Virus record (IMG/VR): IMGVR_UViG_3300033233_000107
Coordinates: 1 to 34,858 of that record
Strand: one strand, 5' to 3'
Source: a virus
DNA: 34,858 nucleotides
Within the stretch, counting starts at the first letter, position 1, and each line of letters starts with the position of its first letter. Under the pieces are notes generated by a model. That model searched no databases, was not told the DNA's origin, and was given only the letters and a program-made list of their open reading frames with translations. Shown piece after piece: positions 3,346 through 28,769 of the stretch. The position numbers and the translations under genes are program-made.

Positions 3346-3625
3346 TTAATCCGCCTCCCTTCTTGGCACGTTTTGTGCCGTAGTGTTTAAATATTTCATT
3401 CACGCTTCGGGTCGAAATCCCGACGACCGGCGCCGCGCCTGCAGCCCAAAACCACCGGACCGCTATTTCCAGTCCTCTTTCGATTTGTGGCCAGAAATGC
3501 TCGGCGGTGAGAAATAGGGCTATCAGGGCGATGTAGATCGCCAATGAAGCCAGGCCCATAATCCGATCGTTTCGGGCCGATCCGAACCAAAACATTGTTT
3601 GGCGCAGAATCTCTTGCTGATTCAT
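3311..3625 (-). CDS. Small membrane protein
   Basis: 104 residues from ATG 3625, which overlaps the upstream stop (ATGA) and follows GGGAGGTG. Hydrophobic segments at about residues 23-40 and 52-70 suggest two membrane passes. The C-terminus is basic (HYGTKRAKKGGG) and probably cytoplasmic. There is no recognised family. It sits far from the lysis genes, so a holin role is not supported. Confidence 0.65.
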   Translation of the reverse strand: MNQQEILRQTMFWFGSARNDRIMGLASLAIYIALIALFLTAEHFWPQIERGLEIAVRWFWAAGAAPVVGISTRSVNEIFKHYGTKRAKKGGGLIEKARTTGRDA

Positions 3626-4209
3626 GTTTTCACCTCCCTCATTTCATTTTCAAAGCAGTCCAAAAGCCTAAGCAGCATCGGATAAAACTCTGTGGCATTT
3701 TTGCCGTCCATTTTTTTGATTCGGGCCTGGGTAAAGTTGCGCCAGTCTGCGAAGCTGTGGCACTCGCAGCCTGCGGATAGATGTGTGTCTGTAATCGTGA
3801 CAAAATATCGAAGACCGCAGACTGTGATGATGTTCTTCGACACCCGCGCCTCGCCGGACACCCGCGCCTCGCCGGACACCCGCGCCTCGCCGAACACCCG
3901 CGCCTCGCCGAACACCCGCGCCTCGCCGAACACCCGCGCCTCGCCGAACACCCGCGCCTCGCCGAACACCCACGCCTCGCCGGACACCCGCGCCTCGCCG
4001 AACACCCGCGCCTCGCCGAACACCCGCGCCTCGCCGGACACCCACGCCTTGTCGAACACCCACGCCTCGCCGTTGATAAAAGCGCTGTCATCTACTTGGG
4101 CCGTATCCGCAACCCAGCCACCTCCATTGGCGTGTCGATGAGCTGGAACAGGACCGCATCCGTCCTCAAAGTCGAAAGTCAATTGATCTTTTTTTATTTT
4201 CTCTGTCAT
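3622..4209 (-). CDS. Hexapeptide-repeat left-handed beta-helix-like protein
   Basis: 195 residues with an excellent start (GGAGGTG five bases before ATG 4209). Residues ~1-38 are a leader domain with a DxAxV-type opening of repeats (VADTAQVDDSAFI). Then come 13 six-residue units of the form (F/S/N)GEA(R/W)V, and a C-terminal globular part of ~75 residues (from KNIITVCG, with HxxxGCEC). GxAxV hexads of this kind build left-handed parallel beta-helices in acyltransferases and in phage GEARV/GNARV proteins. No acyltransferase active-site histidine can be assigned. The repeat DNA is nearly identical, so unit number is likely to change by slippage. Function unknown. Confidence 0.8.
   Translation of the reverse strand: MTEKIKKDQLTFDFEDGCGPVPAHRHANGGGWVADTAQVDDSAFINGEAWVFDKAWVSGEARVFGEARVFGEARVSGEAWVFGEARVFGEARVFGEARVFGEARVFGEARVSGEARVSGEARVSKNIITVCGLRYFVTITDTHLSAGCECHSFADWRNFTQARIKKMDGKNATEFYPMLLRLLDCFENEMREVKT
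3841..4074. repeat. 18-bp tandem array, 13 units
   Basis: Thirteen in-register 18-bp units, consensus CACCCGCGCCTCGCCGAA on the plus strand, differ mainly at the last bases (GAA, GGA or GTT) and at G/A in position 6. The variation switches F/S/N and R/W in the encoded hexapeptide. Because the unit is a multiple of three, loss or gain of units keeps the frame. The same composition leaves long open frames on the opposite strand, which are not genes. Confidence 0.95.
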
Positions 4210-4212
4210 GTT

Positions 4213-4341
4213 TCACCTCCCCGCCTGTGGTCTTAAAAAGATCAAAGACCCCGCCGTGGTAGCGCTAGGCTGGCTGTGTAGCGCTGCCGGGACACCGATA
4301 CCCATCGAGCTCCCGGCGACGAGGTCTAAGTTGAATTTCAT
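4213..4341 (-). CDS. Possible 42-residue peptide
   Basis: ATG at 4341 overlaps the stop of the HTH gene by ATGA, and the frame runs 42 codons to a TGA placed just before the strong ribosome-binding site of the next gene. The peptide begins MKFNLDLVAGSSMGIG and is mildly hydrophobic. No family. The coupling overlap is the only support; there is no good ribosome-binding site. Confidence 0.35.
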   Translation of the reverse strand: MKFNLDLVAGSSMGIGVPAALHSQPSATTAGSLIFLRPQAGR

Positions 4342-4556
4342 ATGCCGAGCTCGCTCAAATACCGCTGGACGTCTTCCGGTTGCCAGCGGCGGCCGAGACC
4401 CGGGAAATATTTAAATGGTAAAAGCCCGCGCTCGTTGAGCCGGGTTAAAGTCGAAGAGGAGCAGTCCAGAATTTGCCGAACGTGGCGGGAATTGAGAAGG
4501 GAAGCGCTCTGGGCGCTTTTAAGCGTTTGCTCCGTATGTTTGGCTCTATCCTTCAT
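4338..4556 (-). CDS. MerR/excisionase-like helix-turn-helix protein
   Basis: 72 residues from ATG 4556. After a polar ~18-residue lead, the sequence LLNSRHVRQILDCSSSTLTRLNERGLLPF ... RRWQPEDVQRYL matches the helix-turn-helix-wing layout of MerR-type and phage excisionase (HTH_17) proteins, including the GLLP turn and a final W-x-x-E-D-V-x-x-Y-L. It lies second in the leftward early operon after the Cro-like gene. It could be the excisionase partner of the integrase at 6205-7269 or an early regulator. Confidence 0.75.
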   Translation of the reverse strand: MKDRAKHTEQTLKSAQSASLLNSRHVRQILDCSSSTLTRLNERGLLPFKYFPGLGRRWQPEDVQRYLSELGI

Positions 4557-5288: not shown

Positions 5289-5373
5289 ATATCTGATTGA
5301 TCCCTCAATAACGATAAGCCGACAAACAATCGAACACCTGAAGGCATTAATAAGAGAAAAGGAGAAAAGATAA
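5266..5373 (+). other. Alternative-frame C-terminus of the repressor after an A9 tract
   Basis: If the A9 run at 5257-5265 is read as A8 (or the frame moves +1), the repressor continues for 35 more residues (beginning ARHLTLIKYLIDPS) to a TAA that overlaps the next ATG as TAATG at 5371-5375. The extension fills the otherwise empty 84 bases between the two genes, is helical and basic, and its stop/start coupling is the usual arrangement in this genome. Together these suggest it is the ancestral or alternative C-terminus. The product would be 141 residues. Phase variation, transcriptional slippage or a base error are all possible. Confidence 0.55.
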
Positions 5374-5597
5374 TGAAGCGTTTATTTATCCTGGCCCTGA
5401 CGATCGTTTTGCTTGTGGGGACGCCTGCTGAGGCTGGAACTAGATTTGTCGGTAGCAAACAAACCAAGAAACTGCACGATTCGACGCATGCTGCCTGTCG
5501 GCAATATATCAAACAAACCAAAAAGGCCAATCGGGTCTACTTTAAATCAAAAAAGGCGGCGCGGAAGGCCGGGTATATGAGTTGCAAAAAATGCTAG
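5373..5597 (+). CDS. Secreted Ada-like metal-site protein
   Basis: 74 residues after a good AAAGGAG site. Residues 1-21 are a signal peptide (MKRLF, hydrophobic core, AEA-G cleavage). The mature part has FVGSK ... H35/H39 and C42, then NRVYFKSKKAARKAGYMSCKKC with C71 and C74. The pattern N-x-V-x-F-x-S-x-x-x-A-x-x-A-G-Y-x-x-C-x-x-C is that of the Ada-type zinc-binding fold, which also occurs in secreted bacterial proteins. It is not a DNA-repair enzyme. Its place between repressor and integrase suggests expression in the lysogen, possibly altering the host surface. A role is not shown. Confidence 0.75.
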   Translation: MKRLFILALTIVLLVGTPAEAGTRFVGSKQTKKLHDSTHAACRQYIKQTKKANRVYFKSKKAARKAGYMSCKKC

Positions 5598-5626: not shown

Positions 5627-6208
5627 ATGGTGATTAAAAAATTGCTTATCGGTGCCGTGGTGTTTTTTGTTTTAGTCGTGATTGTCATAACTATTTCCGG
5701 GCCTTCGGGAGAAAAGGCGACAATCAAACAGGTCGGAGCCAAGCAAGACCTAACGACAACCGTCGAGAATATTATTACAGACAAACTTGGCGAGACCCTC
5801 GTTAATGATAGCAATAAGAAAAGAATCGTATCAGTCGTCATCCTAACAAACGATCCCGCCGATTGGCCCGCGGCCGCCAAAAATAAATACAATGCAACGA
5901 TCGAATTAAACGCTGATGAAAATACAAGCGGAGATCTCACTAAATATGGCATCCTTGGAAATATTAAGGATATCCTTCAGCCCATCTCTGAGCTCAACTC
6001 GGACCTCTACCAGATCGGCTTCGCGTTTCACCTACCGCTCGTTGATAAATTTGGGAAAAAGAAAGACGAACTTGTCTTAAATTACGTAATAGACGAGCCG
6101 ACCTGGGATAAAATCCAATGGGATAACTTTAATCCAGATGATTTTCCGAGCCTAGTAGTGGGAACAGACCACGGCAGTTATTATGAGCATGACGTTTTGA
6201 AACAATGA
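5627..6208 (+). CDS. Membrane-anchored hypothetical protein
   Basis: 193 residues. Residues ~5-24 form one strongly hydrophobic segment after a KK pair, so the remaining ~165 residues are expected outside the membrane. The exported part is mixed alpha/beta with no Cys and no recognised family (features such as VSVVILTNDPADWPAAAKNK and VLNYVIDEPTWDKIQ). GAGG lies very close to ATG 5627, so the GTG at 5630 may be used instead. It is in the lysogeny operon and overlaps the integrase start (ATGA at 6205). Superinfection exclusion is a possible role, from position only. Confidence 0.7.
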   Translation: MVIKKLLIGAVVFFVLVVIVITISGPSGEKATIKQVGAKQDLTTTVENIITDKLGETLVNDSNKKRIVSVVILTNDPADWPAAAKNKYNATIELNADENTSGDLTKYGILGNIKDILQPISELNSDLYQIGFAFHLPLVDKFGKKKDELVLNYVIDEPTWDKIQWDNFNPDDFPSLVVGTDHGSYYEHDVLKQ

Positions 6209-7269
6209 CGACCGGCTCTGTCCAATTCAAGAAATTAAAAAGCGGTATTCGCTGGTATGTCGTCTTGCGCCAAGACGGCAAACAGGTGTTTGTTAAAGGG
6301 AGTGGGAGCCAGAATCGGCGCGAAGCTCAGGCGCGATTAAGCCGAATGCTCGGCCGTGATATCATAAATGAAAATATTAACTTTTCCGACTTCGCGCAAG
6401 AATATCTGGAAAGCGCCCAACTCCGGGTAAAGCCCTCCACTTTTGAGCGTTACCAAAGCATCGTCGACCTGCATCTGTCGCCGATATTGGGTCCCTTAAA
6501 ATTATCCAGGATTACATTGCCGACACTTGAATGCCTAATCGACGATAAGATCAGGGCCGGGCTTGCGCCTGCCACGGTCAATAAGATTATTGTCGTAGCC
6601 AAAATCATCTTTAAGCGGGCGCGGCGCTATAAACAGATCATTGATGATCCAGCGGAATATCTCAAGCGATTGACGGTCGAAAAGAAAGACAAGGATTTCC
6701 TGCGGCCGGAAGATATCGGTATCCTTTTAGATCATATACAAATCAATGTACCGAAATGGTATCCATTCCTGATGGTCGCCGTCTTCACCGGCGCGCGGAT
6801 CAGCGAACTCTTGGCGCTTAAATGGAGCGACATCAACTGGAAGACCGACGAGATACGCTTCGGCGCCAGTCTTTTTCGCGGGAAGGTACTCTCGAATAAG
6901 ACAAATACCATCGCTCTAGTCGAGGTGCCGACTGAGGTTACGGCGGCTCTTAAGACTCAAGAGCACATTATCACGCCAGACGACCTTATCTTCGTTCACC
7001 GGGACGGCAAGCCCTACGACCGGACCGGCGTTTATAAATGGGTATTTAAGAAGGCTCTAAGAGGCGCGGGCTTGCGCGAGGTCACCTTCCATAGCCTTCG
7101 GCACAGTTTTAACTCGATCATGCTTTCAACTGGAGCTAATCTAAAGGTCGTTCAGGATCAGGTGCGGCATAAGACTCTCGATATGACGCTCAACACTTAT
7201 GGCCATGCCCTAAAAGCCGATAAAGCGCGGGCGGTCCGGGAAGTCGCCGACCGGATTCTTCACCCCTAA
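6205..7269 (+). CDS. int: Tyrosine integrase
   Basis: 354 residues, normal length for a phage integrase. Residues 1-50 are an arm-site-binding domain (SGIRWYVVLRQDGKQVFVKG), residues ~58-150 the core-binding SAM-like domain, and ~165-350 the catalytic domain. Catalytic residues are visible: R198 (TGARISELLAL), H296-x-x-R299 (HSLRH), H322 (VRHKT) and the nucleophile Y332 (NTYGH). Translation is coupled to the upstream gene by ATGA. The attachment site follows directly. It integrates and, with an excisionase, excises the phage at a tRNA gene. Confidence 0.97.
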   Translation: MTTGSVQFKKLKSGIRWYVVLRQDGKQVFVKGSGSQNRREAQARLSRMLGRDIINENINFSDFAQEYLESAQLRVKPSTFERYQSIVDLHLSPILGPLKLSRITLPTLECLIDDKIRAGLAPATVNKIIVVAKIIFKRARRYKQIIDDPAEYLKRLTVEKKDKDFLRPEDIGILLDHIQINVPKWYPFLMVAVFTGARISELLALKWSDINWKTDEIRFGASLFRGKVLSNKTNTIALVEVPTEVTAALKTQEHIITPDDLIFVHRDGKPYDRTGVYKWVFKKALRGAGLREVTFHSLRHSFNSIMLSTGANLKVVQDQVRHKTLDMTLNTYGHALKADKARAVREVADRILHP

Positions 7270-7459
7270 TTTTCTAGTATTTTCTAGCAGCCCGCAATAA
7301 TAAGACAAATAAGACAAATAAGAAAAAACGGAAAAGCAGGTCAACGATAAACGCGCTGGTCAAGAAAGTATAGGCACAACACTTTCAAGGCGGCGGCGCG
7401 GATTCGAATTCCGCTGGGGGCACGGGGCGCGGGCAATAATTTTCTAGTGGAATTTCTAG
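7269..7459. other. attP region with integrase arm sites
   Basis: TTTTCTAG-type sites occur in two pairs on either side of the core: 7269-7277 and 7279-7287, then 7438-7447 and 7451-7459 (the last as ATTTCTAG). Pair spacing is about 10-12 bases, one helical turn. A second repeat, AATAAGACAAATAAGACAAATAAG-like (7297-7322), lies between the left pair and the core. Paired arm sites flanking a core are the expected architecture for a lambda-type attP. The core is described separately. Confidence 0.75.
7398..7422 (+). other. attP core: 3-prime end of a tRNA gene
   Basis: GCGGA-TTCGAAT-TCCGC (7398-7414) is a perfect T-arm with the standard seven-base T-loop. It is followed by TGGGGGC (7415-7421), the 3-prime acceptor strand, and A (7422) as discriminator base. 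There is no 5-prime half of a tRNA nearby. Phages that integrate into tRNA genes carry this piece to rebuild the gene. The host tRNA should begin GCCCCCA; its amino acid is not determinable here. Confidence 0.8.
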
Positions 7460-7488
7460 CTGATATCTCTAACAACGTCTAACGCTTT

Positions 7489-7497
7489 TGCTATAAT
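7489..7497 (+). promoter_or_regulatory. Extended -10 promoter of the GIY-YIG gene
   Basis: TGCTATAAT (7489-7497) is a perfect extended -10 (TGnTATAAT). No clear -35 is seen, as is common for this class. Transcription would begin about 7504, giving a leader of about 23 bases to ATG 7527. It lies 30 bases after the right-hand arm sites. Confidence 0.6.
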
Positions 7498-7526: not shown

Positions 7527-7991
7527 ATGGCAAAAGGTTCGATCGTTCAGAGGGGCAATAATTACTATATTGTTTATCGCTGGAACGGCAAACAGATATG
7601 GAAAGCGGCGGGGGCCGACAAGAAGATTGCCGAGATAATGCTTAGGTCCGCTATGGGGGCCGTGAACCGAAATCGACCGCAGCGACAGAGACCAAAATAT
7701 GGTTTTCCCGTGGAGCTGATCACTATCGGCGATCAGATATTAGAGTTTGAAGTCCCGATGTCCTGGCCGCCCTGTATCTACTTTCTCTTAGATGGTCTTG
7801 AGGTCATTTACGTCGGCCAATCAATAAATCTACTTTCGCGCATCGTCGGACATCGGCGCGACAAAAAAGAGTTCGACCGGATTCTTTACTTACCGGTAGC
7901 GCAAGCTGATCTCAATAAGATCGAGCAATCGTGGATTCGCAAACTCAAGCCACGGCTAAATAAGACTCATGCCGAGCTGACGCTGGCCTGA
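7527..7991 (+). CDS. GIY-YIG nuclease fused to an integrase-type arm-binding domain
   Basis: 154 residues. Residues 1-45 (MAKGSIVQRGNNYYIVYRWN, then GKQIWKAAGADKKIAE) match the three-strand-plus-helix arm-binding domain that opens many tyrosine integrases. Residues ~82-147 are a GIY-YIG domain: CIY (83-85), YVG (95-97), the conserved Arg at 105 (LLSRIVGH), H109, the metal-binding Glu at 133 (KIEQSWI) and N145. All usual catalytic residues are present, so the nuclease is probably active. The gene has its own promoter and terminator and lies between attP and the lysis genes, so it would sit at the prophage edge. Site-specific cutting or nicking near arm-type sites, or phage defence, are possible roles. 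Confidence 0.85.
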   Translation: MAKGSIVQRGNNYYIVYRWNGKQIWKAAGADKKIAEIMLRSAMGAVNRNRPQRQRPKYGFPVELITIGDQILEFEVPMSWPPCIYFLLDGLEVIYVGQSINLLSRIVGHRRDKKEFDRILYLPVAQADLNKIEQSWIRKLKPRLNKTHAELTLA

Positions 7992-7997
7992 AACGCG

Positions 7998-8033
7998 AAA
8001 AAGCCCGTCCCCGATTAAGGGAGCGGGCTTTTT
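7998..8033. terminator. Bidirectional terminator
   Basis: AAAAAGCCCG-TCCC and its reverse-complement arm GGGA-GCGGGCTTTTT form a strong hairpin with A/T tracts on both sides. It separates the converging GIY-YIG gene (plus) and lysis genes (minus) and can stop transcription from both. Confidence 0.9.
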
Positions 8034-8212: not shown

Positions 8213-9013
8213 TTATCTCCCCGCCGGCTGCAGTAAAAGGCTCCATGTCGCCGGGCCGACGACTCCGTCGACTTCGATCGGCAGCCCATTGACTTTGACG
8301 CCCTGGGCTCGCCGGGCGGCCTGGAAATGCTTAACCCCGGTTTCTGTCGCCGGGCCGAACTGGCCGTCGACCACGACCGTCACGTGATGAACATTTAGGC
8401 GGACCTGCAGGGCGGAGACGTCTTTGCCTGTTGCCCCGCGCCTCAAAGTCGGACGGGTGGCGGTCTCCGGTTGCGGCGCCGGCGGCACGACGTTGCCGCG
8501 CAATCTGAGAATTGCCCGCGCCAGCTGCCGGCCGCGCTCATCTTGGTTATCGGGCTGCTCGATAAAATCCATTTCCAGCAGGATCGACGGCGCCATGACG
8601 CCGCGGCACCACCAGAGCGATTTCCAGCGCGTGGTCGTGTCGTTCTTCGCTAGACCCGGCAGACCGGTTTCCGCGCTGAGTAGGGCCGCCAAATCTGAGG
8701 CCTGCTTTTGCCGGGCGGTGTTCCCGAGCGCATAGTAGGCCTCGATGCGCCGGGCGCTGGTGGATCCGGCATTCTTGTGTATCTCGAGGGCCAGGCAATC
8801 CGGCCCGGGGTGGCGCTGGTTTACCCACCTCACTTCGTCGATCAGATTATCGCTATGCGGGACGACCGCGGTTGGCACGCCGGCGGGGATGAGGACGGCC
8901 GCGCAGGCGTTGACGATCGCGATCGCGTCGGCCGCTTCGGTTTCTGTGCCGAATGTAGCGCCCGGGTCGCCGCCGCCGTGTCCCGCCGCCAGGATAACTG
9001 TTCTGAATGTCAT
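8213..9013 (-). CDS. Endolysin: N-acetylmuramoyl-L-alanine amidase with peptidoglycan-binding domain
   Basis: 266 residues, with GGAGG six bases before ATG 9013. Residues 1-175 are an Amidase_3 zinc domain: H12 (AAGHGGGDPG), E24/E26, H79 (ALEIHKNAG) and the catalytic E147 (LLEMDFIEQPDN). Residues ~190-262 are a peptidoglycan-binding domain of the PG_binding_1 type (LRRGATGKDVSALQVRL ... VDGVVGPATWSLL). It cuts the bond between MurNAc and L-alanine at lysis. No signal peptide, so it depends on a holin. Confidence 0.95.
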   Translation of the reverse strand: MTFRTVILAAGHGGGDPGATFGTETEAADAIAIVNACAAVLIPAGVPTAVVPHSDNLIDEVRWVNQRHPGPDCLALEIHKNAGSTSARRIEAYYALGNTARQKQASDLAALLSAETGLPGLAKNDTTTRWKSLWWCRGVMAPSILLEMDFIEQPDNQDERGRQLARAILRLRGNVVPPAPQPETATRPTLRRGATGKDVSALQVRLNVHHVTVVVDGQFGPATETGVKHFQAARRAQGVKVNGLPIEVDGVVGPATWSLLLQPAGR

Positions 9014-18962: not shown

Positions 18963-21269
18963 CTACCTTTTCTCCGGCGCGACTCGCGGGCGGGTGCTTC
19001 TGGGTCTCTTTATCGTGTCCGCCGGCGCCCGGCGGACCGCTTGCCGCGGTCCCTCGATGATAACGGGCACCTGGCGCTTGGCTTTCAGTCTCAAATTTTT
19101 AAACTCTTCCGGATCCATCTGTAAACTCTTTAGTTGTTCCTTCGCTTTAGCCCGATCGGCCGTGCTTAGACTGGCAAAATGCCCGTCTTTTCGGGCCAGA
19201 TACATCGCCCCGGGCCTCTTTGTCGCCACAAATCTAGCGCCCAAATGGGCGAAGCCGACCCAGAGCGCCCCGTCGACCCAGTCGTTGCTCTCGATATAGG
19301 GCTGCTCAACCCAGAGACAGCGCCTGTAAGGCGATAGCGACGTCGATCCGTGTCTCCCCGCCAGCAGGGTTTTGGCGCTTACGTGTGGGAACATCCGATC
19401 GCGTTCGCGTCTCCGGTCGGCGCCGAACTTAATACCGATGCTTACGACGTCGGCGGCCGGCGCGAGTTCCGCGACGTCATCGAGGCAGGTCGGTAGGTTC
19501 TGATCGTCTACGTCAAGGTATTGGATCCACTCGGCTTGGGTGATGGCTACCGCGACGTTCCGGGCCCGGCCCATGCTCTGGTGCTCGGGCAGGGTCGCCA
19601 GTCTCCACGGGATCCCGGCCGCCTCGAGCGGCGGCACACATTGCTTGTCCCAAATGCCGGGAGCGTCGTTCTCTGTCGGTCCCGAAATCACGACCGTGAC
19701 CCGGCTGGGCTTTCGGTTGCTCTGGCATATCGAGCGCGTCCAAGCCGGCAGGAATTTCCCATAGTCCCCGTATAAGGAGGTCACGATCGCCACATCCAGC
19801 GGCTTGCTGGTTTCATCCGCCCGGGGGACGTCGGCGTTGACTTGATCGCCGTCGCTAAGTTCAAAGTGCTTTCTTAAGCATATATCCGATACAAATTCAG
19901 CGTCTTGTGGCCCGTTCTTCGAGAGTGGCGGCCGCATATAATGGCAATCGTGGCCATTTATCTTCGCTGGGTAGAATCGATACGGGCCCCATTCGCTGTC
20001 GACCACGAGTTCCGCCCGGTCTAGTTCAATTCCGGCATCGAGGCGCACGTTCAAGGATCCCGGAAAGGGCTCATATCCTAAGACCTCCGCGACCTTTTTG
20101 GCGTATTTGGTAAGTTGTTTGCTGGTTTTGCCCAGGCCGACCTGCACGATACCCAGATTTGCCGGCAGATTTGCCGGCATTTCCCTGAGCTCGAGCGTCA
20201 CCTGGTCACCATTCTTTAGGCTTAAGTGCTCCCGGAGGTTAACGTCGGCCATGATTTCGGGCACGTCATCCGACCAGCGCGAATGCGGGGGCTTGGCTAT
20301 CCAGCACTCATATCCGTTTAGCGTGCACGGCCAGAGATAGAATTTACCGCCCTGGATCGGAAACGAGGCGGCCTTGTCGCGAGACAAAATCAGATCGTTC
20401 GCCAGTCTGATATTCAGGGTCCCGGCGGCCATTGTTTGGCCGGTGGCTCGTCTCAAATGCGGCGCCCACAGTTCGGTGTGTTTCCGGGCCCCGCCGGTGC
20501 CATCGATCGGTGTCCCGATGCATGGCCCCGGCGGGTATCTCTTGAGCGGCCGCTCGGCCACCTTATCCCGGTCCAGGGTCTTACTGATCACGGCATTATG
20601 CTCTTGGTTTAAGTGCTCGAGGATCGCGTCGGCCCAGCGGACGTTGATGGTCCTGATTTCGCCGCCGGTCGGCGTCTCGATAAAGGCTATGGTCCCTTTT
20701 CGGGTGGCCTCCAGGAGCGCGTCGGCGATCGGCTGCCATTCGTTTACGTTGTGGACCACGCTGAGCGCTAGGATCACATCGTATTTTTCGGCCCGCACGA
20801 TCTCGGCGATTTGCCGGGCGTTTAGCGACCTATTAATGCCGCGCATATTCTTAAAGCCGTTCGCTGCGATAATGTTAAGGAGACATTCGTCTCGGTCGAT
20901 TAAGGTGCAGGCGGCTCCAAAATCGTTAGCGAGACGAAAGCTGAAATATCCTTGTGCCGCGCCAATGTCGAGGACGGTAAATTCCCGGGGGAGGTCTTTA
21001 AGGCTCTCGGCGATCACGCTGTAGCGTTTCTCGCAGTCCCTCTGGCCCTTAGCGACGGTCTTGCCCTTCAACCACACGTCTTGGTAGGGGTTGCGTCCGG
21101 AGGTGCGATACAGTGGCTTCTCCGGCGGTGTTTCCGCCGCGCCTTCATCCCCGACTTTGACTAGGCGTTTGCCCAGCACTCTGATTTCCCCGGGCGTCGG
21201 CTTGAACACGTCGCCGGTTCTGAATCGGGTCCGGCGTATATATTGCCCCTGTACTAACCGATATTCCAT
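18963..21269 (-). CDS. Multi-domain enzyme: SAM methyltransferase, two RibK-like domains, GT2 glycosyltransferase
   Basis: 768 residues, directly after the capsid gene. Residues 1-45: a small head-gene-type lead. Residues ~75-245: class I methyltransferase with motif I VLDIGAAQGYFSF (99-111), D125 after strand 2 and the YDVILALSVVHN helix. Residues ~265-362 and ~372-482: two domains with G(T/S)LN(I/V)RL, PC/PAxxNG(Y/H)xC, and xLREHLxLxxGDQV, the conserved phrases of archaeal CTP-dependent riboflavin kinase (DUF120). The second also keeps GLGKTSKQLTKY. Residues ~490-690: family-2 glycosyltransferase with VAIVTSLYG and a DxD (LDVDD, 585-589). The C-terminus is basic (RRAPADTIKRPRSTRPR). A combined methyl/phosphoryl/glycosyl transfer to a glycan or virion protein is inferred; substrates are unknown. 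Confidence 0.78.
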   Translation of the reverse strand: MEYRLVQGQYIRRTRFRTGDVFKPTPGEIRVLGKRLVKVGDEGAAETPPEKPLYRTSGRNPYQDVWLKGKTVAKGQRDCEKRYSVIAESLKDLPREFTVLDIGAAQGYFSFRLANDFGAACTLIDRDECLLNIIAANGFKNMRGINRSLNARQIAEIVRAEKYDVILALSVVHNVNEWQPIADALLEATRKGTIAFIETPTGGEIRTINVRWADAILEHLNQEHNAVISKTLDRDKVAERPLKRYPPGPCIGTPIDGTGGARKHTELWAPHLRRATGQTMAAGTLNIRLANDLILSRDKAASFPIQGGKFYLWPCTLNGYECWIAKPPHSRWSDDVPEIMADVNLREHLSLKNGDQVTLELREMPANLPANLGIVQVGLGKTSKQLTKYAKKVAEVLGYEPFPGSLNVRLDAGIELDRAELVVDSEWGPYRFYPAKINGHDCHYMRPPLSKNGPQDAEFVSDICLRKHFELSDGDQVNADVPRADETSKPLDVAIVTSLYGDYGKFLPAWTRSICQSNRKPSRVTVVISGPTENDAPGIWDKQCVPPLEAAGIPWRLATLPEHQSMGRARNVAVAITQAEWIQYLDVDDQNLPTCLDDVAELAPAADVVSIGIKFGADRRRERDRMFPHVSAKTLLAGRHGSTSLSPYRRCLWVEQPYIESNDWVDGALWVGFAHLGARFVATKRPGAMYLARKDGHFASLSTADRAKAKEQLKSLQMDPEEFKNLRLKAKRQVPVIIEGPRQAVRRAPADTIKRPRSTRPRVAPEKR

Positions 21270-27008: not shown

Positions 27009-27428
27009 TCGTCGCCTCCGGCCACCAGTCGTCTGGCAAGCCTTTCAGTTTTGCGTATCTCCGGACAATTACGTCGACATACTTGGGGTCGAGCTCCATG
27101 ATCCGGGCGCGGCGGCCGAGATGGTCGGCGCCGACGAGCGTCGATCCGCTGCCTCCAAACATATCGAGCGCGATCGCGCCGGCGCCGCTTGAATTCTTGA
27201 GCGCCTTATAAGAAAGGGCCACGGGTTTTTGGGTCGGGTGATCATATTTTCCCGTGTCGTTTTCCACTTCCCATAGGTCTGTGGTCTTCGCCGGCGGCGT
27301 GATCACTAAGCCGTCGCCGGCTTTTAACCGCAGCGTCCGGAGCTTCTTGTTTTTCGGTGCTTTGGGCGCGAGGTAGAGCTCGTTGCCTTCGCCGGTTGTT
27401 ATTCGAATACCATTAGCCAGACTGACCC
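26878..27428 (-). pseudogene. C-terminal half of the DNA methyltransferase, out of frame
   Basis: This frame carries the second half of a beta-class (N6-adenine/N4-cytosine) methyltransferase: KYDHPTQKPVALSYKAL, the SAM-binding motif MFGGSGSTL and RARIMELDPKYVDVI. The first half, with DPPY, ends at 27399 in the neighbouring frame. The two join smoothly if one base is added to the G4 run at 27426-27429 (ATG GGG GTC). It may be translated as a fusion if frameshifting occurs; otherwise the enzyme is dead. The tail (from EATNETRTET) runs into the terS gene and looks non-domain. Confidence 0.7.
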
Positions 27429-28769
27429 CATCCGATCGCCGCTCTCGCTCCGGGCGGTAACGTGCCAGATGGTCCCTTGTGACCGATCGCCTAACCACTC
27501 CGCGCTCTGGCCGGCTTTCTCGCAATAAAAACAGGGCTCATGCTGCCAGTGATAATGCGCGCGCCCGAGGACGAAACTGGGCTTAGCCCAGATGATGTAT
27601 TGCTTCTCGAGCAGGCCGGCGGCCATGATCGCGTCCTCGAATTCCCGGCGCGTTGCGCTCGCGTGCCAAATATAAAAGGCCGCGGTGTCTGTGGTCACGG
27701 AGCCGGCGAGCGTGAGCGCGGCCGTCAGCATTTTAAAGAGGTCGTCATCGCGCTTGCCGTCGTTCTTAATTATTCCGTGGCCGGCTTTGCTGTCATAACT
27801 TACGCCATAGGGCGGGTCCGTGAAGACGATCTCCGCTTTCTTCCCGCCCATGAGTTTTTCCATATGATCCGCGCTGGTGGCGTCGCCGCACATCACGCGG
27901 TGGGCGCCGATGCCGGCACGCATGTATCGCTCCCAGGTCGGCCGGTCCTGGCTAAATAGCCGGCTGCTGTTGTTTGGCAGCATCGTGATGTCGGTGCAGC
28001 ACGGCAGGCAGCCCGTCTCGAGGCTCGCCGCCGGCGGGTACTCGATATTGTTTCCTTTTAGGTAACTGTCGATGTCGGCATCGGTCCAATGCGCCAGTGG
28101 GTAGCTCTGGTACCAGCGATATTTCTTCGGCTTAAAAAGCATGCCGTTGTCGAGCATCCCGAATGTCCGGCGCTGGCTTTCGTCGGCCCGATTTCCCCAA
28201 AACACGACGCGGATCCGAAAGGTCCGGAGCACCGCGTTGGCATATTTCTCTTTCAGTTGGTAGCAGCACTGGACCGGGCTGACCCGAAGGCCCGGGATCG
28301 CCCGCTTATATTTCGTAAATCCGCGCTTGCTGAGCACGGGATAATATCCGGTTCGGTCCCACATCGCGATCGGGTCCTCGTCGACCGTCGTCTCGATGTA
28401 GGTTATCTCGGCCGGTTTGGCCGCTTTTGACGTTTTATCAACAAAGGATCGGGCCCAATCGAGGGCCCCTGGCCGCCCGAGCGTCGTGTTATTGTGCATC
28501 ACGATCAATTTCGGGGCGGTCTGGTTTTGGCCGGCGGGTTTCTGGTGGGGTTTCTGCGTCAGAAAACCTGCCACCAGGTGCAGGAGCACGGTGGAATCCC
28601 GGCCGCCGCTGTAAAGCAAGGCGGGCGGACCGATCGCGAGGCTGCGCTTTATGATGTCCTGGGTGACGGCCAGCTTCACGCCCCAGGTTTCACGCTGCAG
28701 GCGCTCGAGGAGCCGGCGCCGGCTTTGGAGTTGCTCCGGCCCGCAGCGCTCATAGACGCCCTTGGTCAT
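27399..28769 (-). CDS. PAPS-reductase-like domain fused to the N-terminal half of a DNA methyltransferase
   Basis: 456 residues. Residues ~30-285 are an adenine-nucleotide alpha-hydrolase (PAPS reductase/IbrA-like) domain: PP-loop SGGRDST (54-60), CC at 168-169 and C-x2-CC at 254-258 (a possible metal or Fe-S site). Residues ~290-448 start a beta-class DNA methyltransferase: RVMCGDAT, then the catalytic motif IV TDPPYG (317-322), YIWHASATRREFE. The frame stops soon after a G4 tract at 27426-27429, before the SAM-binding motif, which is found in the next frame. It is coupled to the ParB-like gene (ATGA at 28766), suggesting one DNA-modification unit. Confidence 0.85.
   Translation of the reverse strand: MTKGVYERCGPEQLQSRRRLLERLQRETWGVKLAVTQDIIKRSLAIGPPALLYSGGRDSTVLLHLVAGFLTQKPHQKPAGQNQTAPKLIVMHNNTTLGRPGALDWARSFVDKTSKAAKPAEITYIETTVDEDPIAMWDRTGYYPVLSKRGFTKYKRAIPGLRVSPVQCCYQLKEKYANAVLRTFRIRVVFWGNRADESQRRTFGMLDNGMLFKPKKYRWYQSYPLAHWTDADIDSYLKGNNIEYPPAASLETGCLPCCTDITMLPNNSSRLFSQDRPTWERYMRAGIGAHRVMCGDATSADHMEKLMGGKKAEIVFTDPPYGVSYDSKAGHGIIKNDGKRDDDLFKMLTAALTLAGSVTTDTAAFYIWHASATRREFEDAIMAAGLLEKQYIIWAKPSFVLGRAHYHWQHEPCFYCEKAGQSAEWLGDRSQGTIWHVTARSESGDRMGSVWLMVFE

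Follow-up and report, generated by a model that had tools for sequence, protein, structure and literature searches.

The window analysed here is the whole of the linear virus record IMGVR_UViG_3300033233_000107 from IMG/VR (positions 1 to 34,858; 34,858 bases), and the gene under study, at 7527-7991 on its plus strand, encodes a small protein in which an N-terminal domain resembling the arm-binding domain of tyrosine integrases is joined to a GIY-YIG nuclease domain. This two-domain architecture is accompanied by intact catalytic residues, a site beside an integrase gene and a putative phage attachment site (attP), recurrence of the same pairing at other loci, and N-termini that match those of the neighbouring integrases. 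On the plus strand of this temperate phage, the integrase gene is followed by a repeat-rich intergenic region and then by the nuclease gene, and the minus strand carries the genes for terminase, portal, head protease, major head protein and tape measure. The features of the locus are as follows:

6205-7269, plus strand: tyrosine integrase (354 amino acids), with an arm-like N-terminal domain, a SAM-like domain and a catalytic domain (Phage_integrase 1.6e-26, SAM_3 3.6e-12, phrog_1 8.6e-70)
7269-7287: two ATTTTCTAG repeats, candidate P-side arm sites (repeat family D1)
7299-7327: three AATAAGACAAA-type repeats, candidate second arm or accessory sites (repeat family D2)
~7383-7423, plus strand: putative attP core, resembling the 3' half of tRNA-Glu(UUC) from the anticodon loop to the 3' end (weak tRNA match)
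7439-7459: ATTTTCTAG and AATTTCTAG, candidate P'-side arm sites (repeat family D1)
7469-7497, plus strand: sigma70-like promoter with an extended -10 (TGCTATAAT; CTAACA-17-TATAAT with a TG extension)
7527-7991, plus strand: nuclease gene, 154 amino acids, arm domain plus GIY-YIG (ATG start, AAGGGG upstream)
7527-7664, plus strand: integrase arm-binding/AP2-like domain, residues 1-46 (beta-beta-beta-alpha model, BLASTP, structural matches)
7770-7967, plus strand: GIY-YIG catalytic domain, residues 82-147, or 83-145 in a narrower delimitation (sub-threshold Pfam matches, conserved residues, structure model)
~7998-8033, both strands: bidirectional intrinsic terminator hairpin (folding z -4.1/-4.7)
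8213-9013, minus strand: amidase endolysin, the first gene beyond the terminator, on the lysis/tail strand (Amidase_3 3.1e-13, PG_binding_1 5.3e-10)

An earlier note on this DNA had described the gene as a moron-like unit situated between attP and the lysis module, with its own promoter and a bidirectional terminator. The gene order bears out this position, and both signals were found, the promoter-like site as a consensus-level match and the terminator as a stable bidirectional hairpin. Regarding attP, a repeat search located three copies of ATTTTCTAG and one further copy with a single mismatch, all of them within 7269-7459, and exact copies of TTTTCTAG are confined, in the whole window, to 7269-7287 and 7440. 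The Rfam tRNA match at 7357-7414 has an intact T-arm (GCGGATTCGAATTCCGC) and, at 14.3 bits, is weak and below the cut-off; for this reason attP is regarded as putative, and the assignment of 7383-7423 to tRNA-Glu(UUC) is this analysis's own tentative reading. A search for a T-loop motif between the integrase and GIY-YIG genes of the relatives returned nothing, the window itself included, with a pattern that was too strict.

The nuclease domain falls below the curated Pfam cut-offs, which are detection thresholds rather than biological features, for both GIY_YIG_2 (PF20815; 8.9e-4, 19.7 versus 22.4 bits) and GIY-YIG (PF01541; 6.5e-3, 17.2 versus 22.6 bits), unlike several of its relatives, which pass. 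Residues and fold both agree with the GIY-YIG superfamily: the catalytic positions Y85, Y95, G97, R105, H109, E133 and N145 are all kept, also in the relatives, with Cys replacing the first Gly of the GIY motif (CIY), and the structure model shows a high-confidence GIY-YIG fold, with a predicted local distance difference test score (pLDDT) of 89-95 in the core blocks and structural matches to UvrC (Z 9.6), T4 EndoII (Z 9.2) and I-TevI (Z 7.5). The description of the domain as a complete GIY-YIG nuclease, also made in the earlier note, is thus upheld. Pfam detected no Phage_integrase domain, and therefore no tyrosine recombinase catalytic domain, in the 154-residue protein, and a sequence search of the PDB with it yielded nothing meaningful.

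The N-terminal domain is modelled as a beta-beta-beta-alpha unit, with strands at residues 4-9, 12-19 and 22-29 and a helix at 32-46 (pLDDT mostly 80-89), a fold that is shared with AP2 domains. BLASTP aligned it with residues 1-50 of the integrase encoded by the same phage at E=2e-4 (30% identical, 60% similar), a value that refers to that single pairwise comparison, and the own integrase ranks first among 33 integrases for this N-terminus (score 58; mean of the others 27, maximum 46). The match of the N-terminus to the phrog_1 integrase family is only a hint (E 0.08). When the model was compared with integrase arm domains, matches at middling Z values were obtained with the lambda Int N-terminal domain (Z 5.0, 2.1 Å over 45 residues) and with a P4-like integrase arm domain (Z 4.6, 1.8 Å, 22% identity), and the arm domains of the HPI and HAI7 integrases are likewise among the structural neighbours. 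Altogether, the BLASTP alignment, the first rank of the own integrase and the modelled fold support the arm-like character that had been proposed for this N-terminus.

The resemblance between nuclease and neighbouring integrase extends to other loci (designated here by L numbers). Each GIY-YIG N-terminus was scored against those of all the neighbouring integrases, with 20,000 shuffles of the partners, and the cognate pairs totalled 2123 versus a shuffled mean of 1203 (standard deviation 100, maximum 1671 in 20,000). With duplicates removed, cognate scores still exceeded shuffled ones, both over all pairs (P 2e-5) and in the arm class (P 2e-5), and also within the AP2-like arm subset alone (P 5e-4); for the non-arm proteins, the comparison of cognate with shuffled pairs gave P 0.17. 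Because the arm class had first been assembled from integrase-adjacent examples, the classification was repeated with a second profile trained on integrases, namely only on 21 integrase N-termini taken from sampled bacterial genomes; these integrases had been found, and their arm segments delimited, with the fusion profile. This profile matches 15 GIY-YIG N-termini, down to 7.5e-18, and the matched proteins with usable flanks are integrase-adjacent in 12 of 13 cases versus 21 of 111 for the others (Fisher 2.4e-7).

One pair of related phages, L166 and L167 (~3600-4430), was seen to have integrase catalytic regions and nuclease domains that are ~90-100% identical at the DNA level, and arm domains of both proteins, together with the region between them, that are only 50-68% identical. 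In each of the two phages, the nuclease arm is closer to the integrase of the other phage than to its own (123 and 103 versus 92 and 77). This crossed resemblance could reflect reciprocal targeting, but it concerns a single pair, and chance or an old exchange could also explain it. No sign of a recent inversion that might have caused it was seen at the DNA level.

Single-protein scans of viral contigs returned no close relatives of the window protein, of its integrase or of the L067 protein, and a first multi-sequence alignment offered no stretch conserved enough for scanning; the relatives of the tape measure protein were distant phages only. Many relatives of the nuclease domain came to light when viral and genome contigs were scanned with profiles. 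Open reading frames (ORFs) were taken from stop to stop and integrase ORFs were called with an in-house profile, and among 156 distinct nuclease cores a tyrosine integrase is present in 39 loci, at 400 base pairs or less in 33 of them. An integrase arm-type N-terminus occurs in about 20 of the nuclease relatives. In L095, the lambda Arm-DNA-bind_1 domain (PF09003, 2e-11) and GIY-YIG lie in one protein, both above their curated cut-offs, and the N-terminus of the neighbouring integrase looks similar to the nuclease arm domain; in L067, the GIY-YIG ORF matches the adjoining integrase at 3e-12, and the same pairing is found in L054, L090, L159, L165, L169, L175, L225 and others. These independent fusions in many contigs and metagenome-assembled genomes exclude an assembly chimera, which had been named beforehand as an outcome that would undo the proposal. 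The class with the 'TPEERKAIAAK' N-terminus serves as an internal control and is largely unlinked to integrases (3 of 51 members with usable flanks are integrase-adjacent).

Other N-termini were also observed on the same nuclease. DUF4224 plus GIY-YIG lies directly beside an integrase in L066 (1458-1931), and an N-terminus similar to DUF4224 is joined to the same GIY-YIG domain in L068 (~3785-4306). Integrase-adjacent GIY-YIG proteins with HTH_17/AlpA-like N-termini (HTH_17 below the Pfam cut-off) occur in L003, L025, L078, L117 and L141, and these N-termini resemble excisionase-type DNA-binding domains. Moreover, a GIY-YIG protein in L084 (3749-4237) is located upstream of a terminase gene, with an integrase ~15 kb away, and might contain an arm fragment like that of the P4 integrase, as read in this analysis.

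An AP2-like DNA-binding domain could simply have been acquired by a homing nuclease through generic domain shuffling, in which case the target would be unrelated to attachment (att) sites. AP2 domains do have this fold, the AP2 domain of SIP2 (6sy0) being matched by the window domain at Z 5.8; they are also known from HNH homing nucleases of phages (PMC10448857), and arm-like fusions with no nearby integrase exist (L006, L317). However, the N-termini match the neighbouring integrase beyond shuffled partners even within one arm type, and adjacency to integrases is strongly enriched for the arm class, with which an explanation by shuffling appears improbable.

The explanation on which the balance of the evidence settles, by a small measure, is that the window protein is an att-directed nuclease, where binding, cutting, victim and benefit are all predicted. 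Through its arm-type N-terminal domain the protein would dock on arm-type DNA, near which the GIY-YIG domain would then introduce a nick or a break. Likely victims would be the attP regions of co-resident phages with related integrase and att specificity, and the payoff could be either homing, in which the integrase-attP-nuclease block is copied into the cleaved rival, or exclusion, in which the rival is destroyed.

Several observations weigh against this att-directed function. The window arm domain lies below the threshold of every Pfam arm family, as a divergent subtype would, and the N-terminus of the window's own integrase is likewise without a match to a Pfam arm family. In addition, the window protein is not matched by the profile of the 21 bacterial integrase N-termini; its arm domain looks like a different subtype that is nearer to those of L067 and L090. 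The structural match of the modelled N-terminal domain to arm domains is supportive only, because the Z values (4-6) are middling and AP2 and unrelated folds score equally. Two fusions are apparently unlinked to integrases: the one on the Methylovorus plasmid pMsip01 (L006, 2788-3693) has no integrase among its annotated neighbours, and for a bacterial arm-like plus GIY-YIG fusion (L317, 5968-7143, minus strand) none was detected within ~6 kb. The detection of integrase ORFs relied on the in-house profile, and the loci, many of which are metagenomic fragments, were recruited with fusion-built profiles, so the prevalence figures do not describe a random sample. Finally, the carrier would have to escape self-cleavage somehow. 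As a separate observation, the L006 protein consists of an arm-like domain, GIY-YIG and a LuxR-type (GerE) HTH, and its gene lies upstream of those for an SOS-response peptidase and umuDC.

The N-terminal half of one fusion profile (A5) matches many long ORFs in gammaproteobacterial genomes, and 23 integrase ORFs were confirmed by the in-house profile among the loci fetched for these matches; the two halves of another profile (A7) separately match integrase-sized and UvrC-sized ORFs. The nuclease is not needed for integration, because none of the 23 arm-type integrases in the sampled genomes is accompanied by a nuclease gene. Moreover, the arm-domain/GIY-YIG fusion is rare in the sampled genomes and the gene order relative to the integrase varies, being tandem in both directions, divergent or convergent. 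The variable order, the rarity and the absence beside these integrases point to an optional mobile gene rather than to a part of the recombination machinery, and such a character fits homing or inter-phage conflict.

One version of the att-directed reading, with which its likelihood overlaps, is a homing endonuclease, a free-standing mobile GIY-YIG gene that would have inserted beside attP and taken its specificity from the integrase. Att regions devoid of the gene would be cut and would receive a copy of it during repair; the carrier would be protected because the inserted gene, next to the arm sites, would disturb the geometry needed for cleavage. Among homing nucleases, the GIY-YIG fold is a classic one, T5orf172 homing nucleases have been described with modular DNA-binding domains (PMC10448857), and the variable gene order, the optional nature of the gene and the rarity of the fusion also speak for homing. 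Nevertheless, homing sites are usually in conserved coding sequence and not in att arms, and no two near-identical integrase/att loci differing in the presence of the gene came to light, since the search returned only the query (the L166 integrase) and one close relative, both with the gene. Homing may thus be viewed as a possibility that is still somewhat doubtful.

A second version of the att-directed reading is a superinfection or integration guard, in which a nuclease made by the lysogen would cut the intact attP of incoming related phages and spare its own attL and attR, which carry partial arms. The promoter-like site and the terminator are compatible with prophage expression, which a guard would require, the gene is expected at the prophage edge opposite the integrase after integration, and the L164 provirus record starts with the ATG of a nuclease gene of this kind, with the lysis module alongside. 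However, many relatives are in apparent operons with the integrase (L054, L169, L175, L225), which suggests co-expression with it instead of constant expression in the prophage, and the replicating phage would bear its own intact attP. Guarding is therefore rather unlikely. The earlier note had interpreted the protein as a possible integration-guard or defence nuclease; its account of the domains, the location, the gene's own signals and the fusions elsewhere holds, but defence is one of several possible outcomes, and the gene arrangement is explained at least equally well by homing.

A function as a recombination accessory would have the nuclease working with its own integrase; it might, for instance, set the direction of recombination as a directionality factor, or nick att DNA so that an intermediate is relaxed or resolved. 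The tight linkage to the integrase, an N-terminal domain of the same type as that of the own integrase, and the excisionase-like HTH_17 and DUF4224 domains of sister proteins would agree with such a role. Nonetheless, no nuclease gene stands beside any of the 23 integrases of the same arm type, and known directionality factors need no conserved catalytic nuclease set, which leaves an accessory role with little likelihood.

Returning to the att-directed nuclease, the repeated joining of the same small nuclease to an element's presumed att-binding domain (arm types, excisionase-like HTH_17, DUF4224) may extend beyond this phage, and a general class of att-directed GIY-YIG nucleases that cut the attachment sites of competitors, in temperate phages and other mobile elements, is conceivable, if short of probable.

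The closest parallel in design is Odn (origin-directed nuclease) of vibriophage ICP1, a nuclease of the GIY-YIG clan (T5orf172) whose N-terminal domain is 42% identical to the RepA_N domain of the PLE satellite (PMC8263062). Its cut falls at the origin of the satellite and depends on the RepA iterons (PMC8263062); Odn thus provides an experimental precedent for a nuclease of such a design. Both proteins combine a GIY-YIG-clan nuclease with the site-binding domain of an element's own machinery, a likeness of design and not of membership: whereas Odn has RepA_N and acts on a satellite replication origin, the window protein has a domain like the integrase arm of the same phage, matches GIY-YIG/GIY_YIG_2 instead of T5orf172 (Pfam found neither RepA_N nor T5orf172 in it), and its activity is only predicted. 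Free-standing phage GIY-YIG homing endonucleases (I-TevI, Seg type, NUMOD-bearing) share the catalytic fold and residues and a swappable DNA-binding module, but in the window protein this module is integrase-type and N-terminal, and homing is only proposed. The arm domains of the lambda, P4, HPI and HAI7 integrases have the same beta-beta-beta-alpha fold and N-terminal position, and the window domain is similar in sequence to that of its own integrase; in the window protein, however, it is joined to a GIY-YIG nuclease and not to a tyrosine recombinase. AP2-HNH homing endonucleases also combine an AP2-like domain of three strands and a helix with a nuclease domain, although of another fold.

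In the open-access literature searched, no paper joins GIY-YIG, excisionase, integrase and attP, an absence that is no proof of novelty; the sole paper in which GIY-YIG, arm-type and integrase appear together is a restriction review, and the word integrase is absent from the 2006 survey of the GIY-YIG superfamily. Integrase-linked GIY-YIG nucleases with a DNA-binding domain matching the neighbouring integrase appear to be undescribed in that literature, and the recurrent matched pairing suggests a so far unrecognised nuclease group that is directed at the attachment sites of phages. If att sites are indeed cut, integration itself would be a target in the conflicts among temperate phages and, should the class be general, attP would be contested ground, as the replication origin is between ICP1 and PLE. 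The matched arm domains would constitute a readable code, in which the adjoining integrase predicts the binding site of the nuclease, so the idea is directly testable and makes a clear prediction of attachment-site cleavage. Such proteins might also provide naturally occurring nucleases with DNA-binding modules that obey known integrase specificities.

Elsewhere in the window, a 74-residue ORF at 5373-5597 (plus strand) has a weak match to the Ada metal-binding domain (4.8e-4, below the cut-off), and a 768-residue ORF at 18963-21269 (minus strand), amid the structural genes, has methyltransferase-like and glycosyltransferase-like regions. A single 456-residue ORF at 27399-28769 (minus strand) matches both PAPS reductase (residues 42-258) and DNA methyltransferase (287-439), and could be a fusion.
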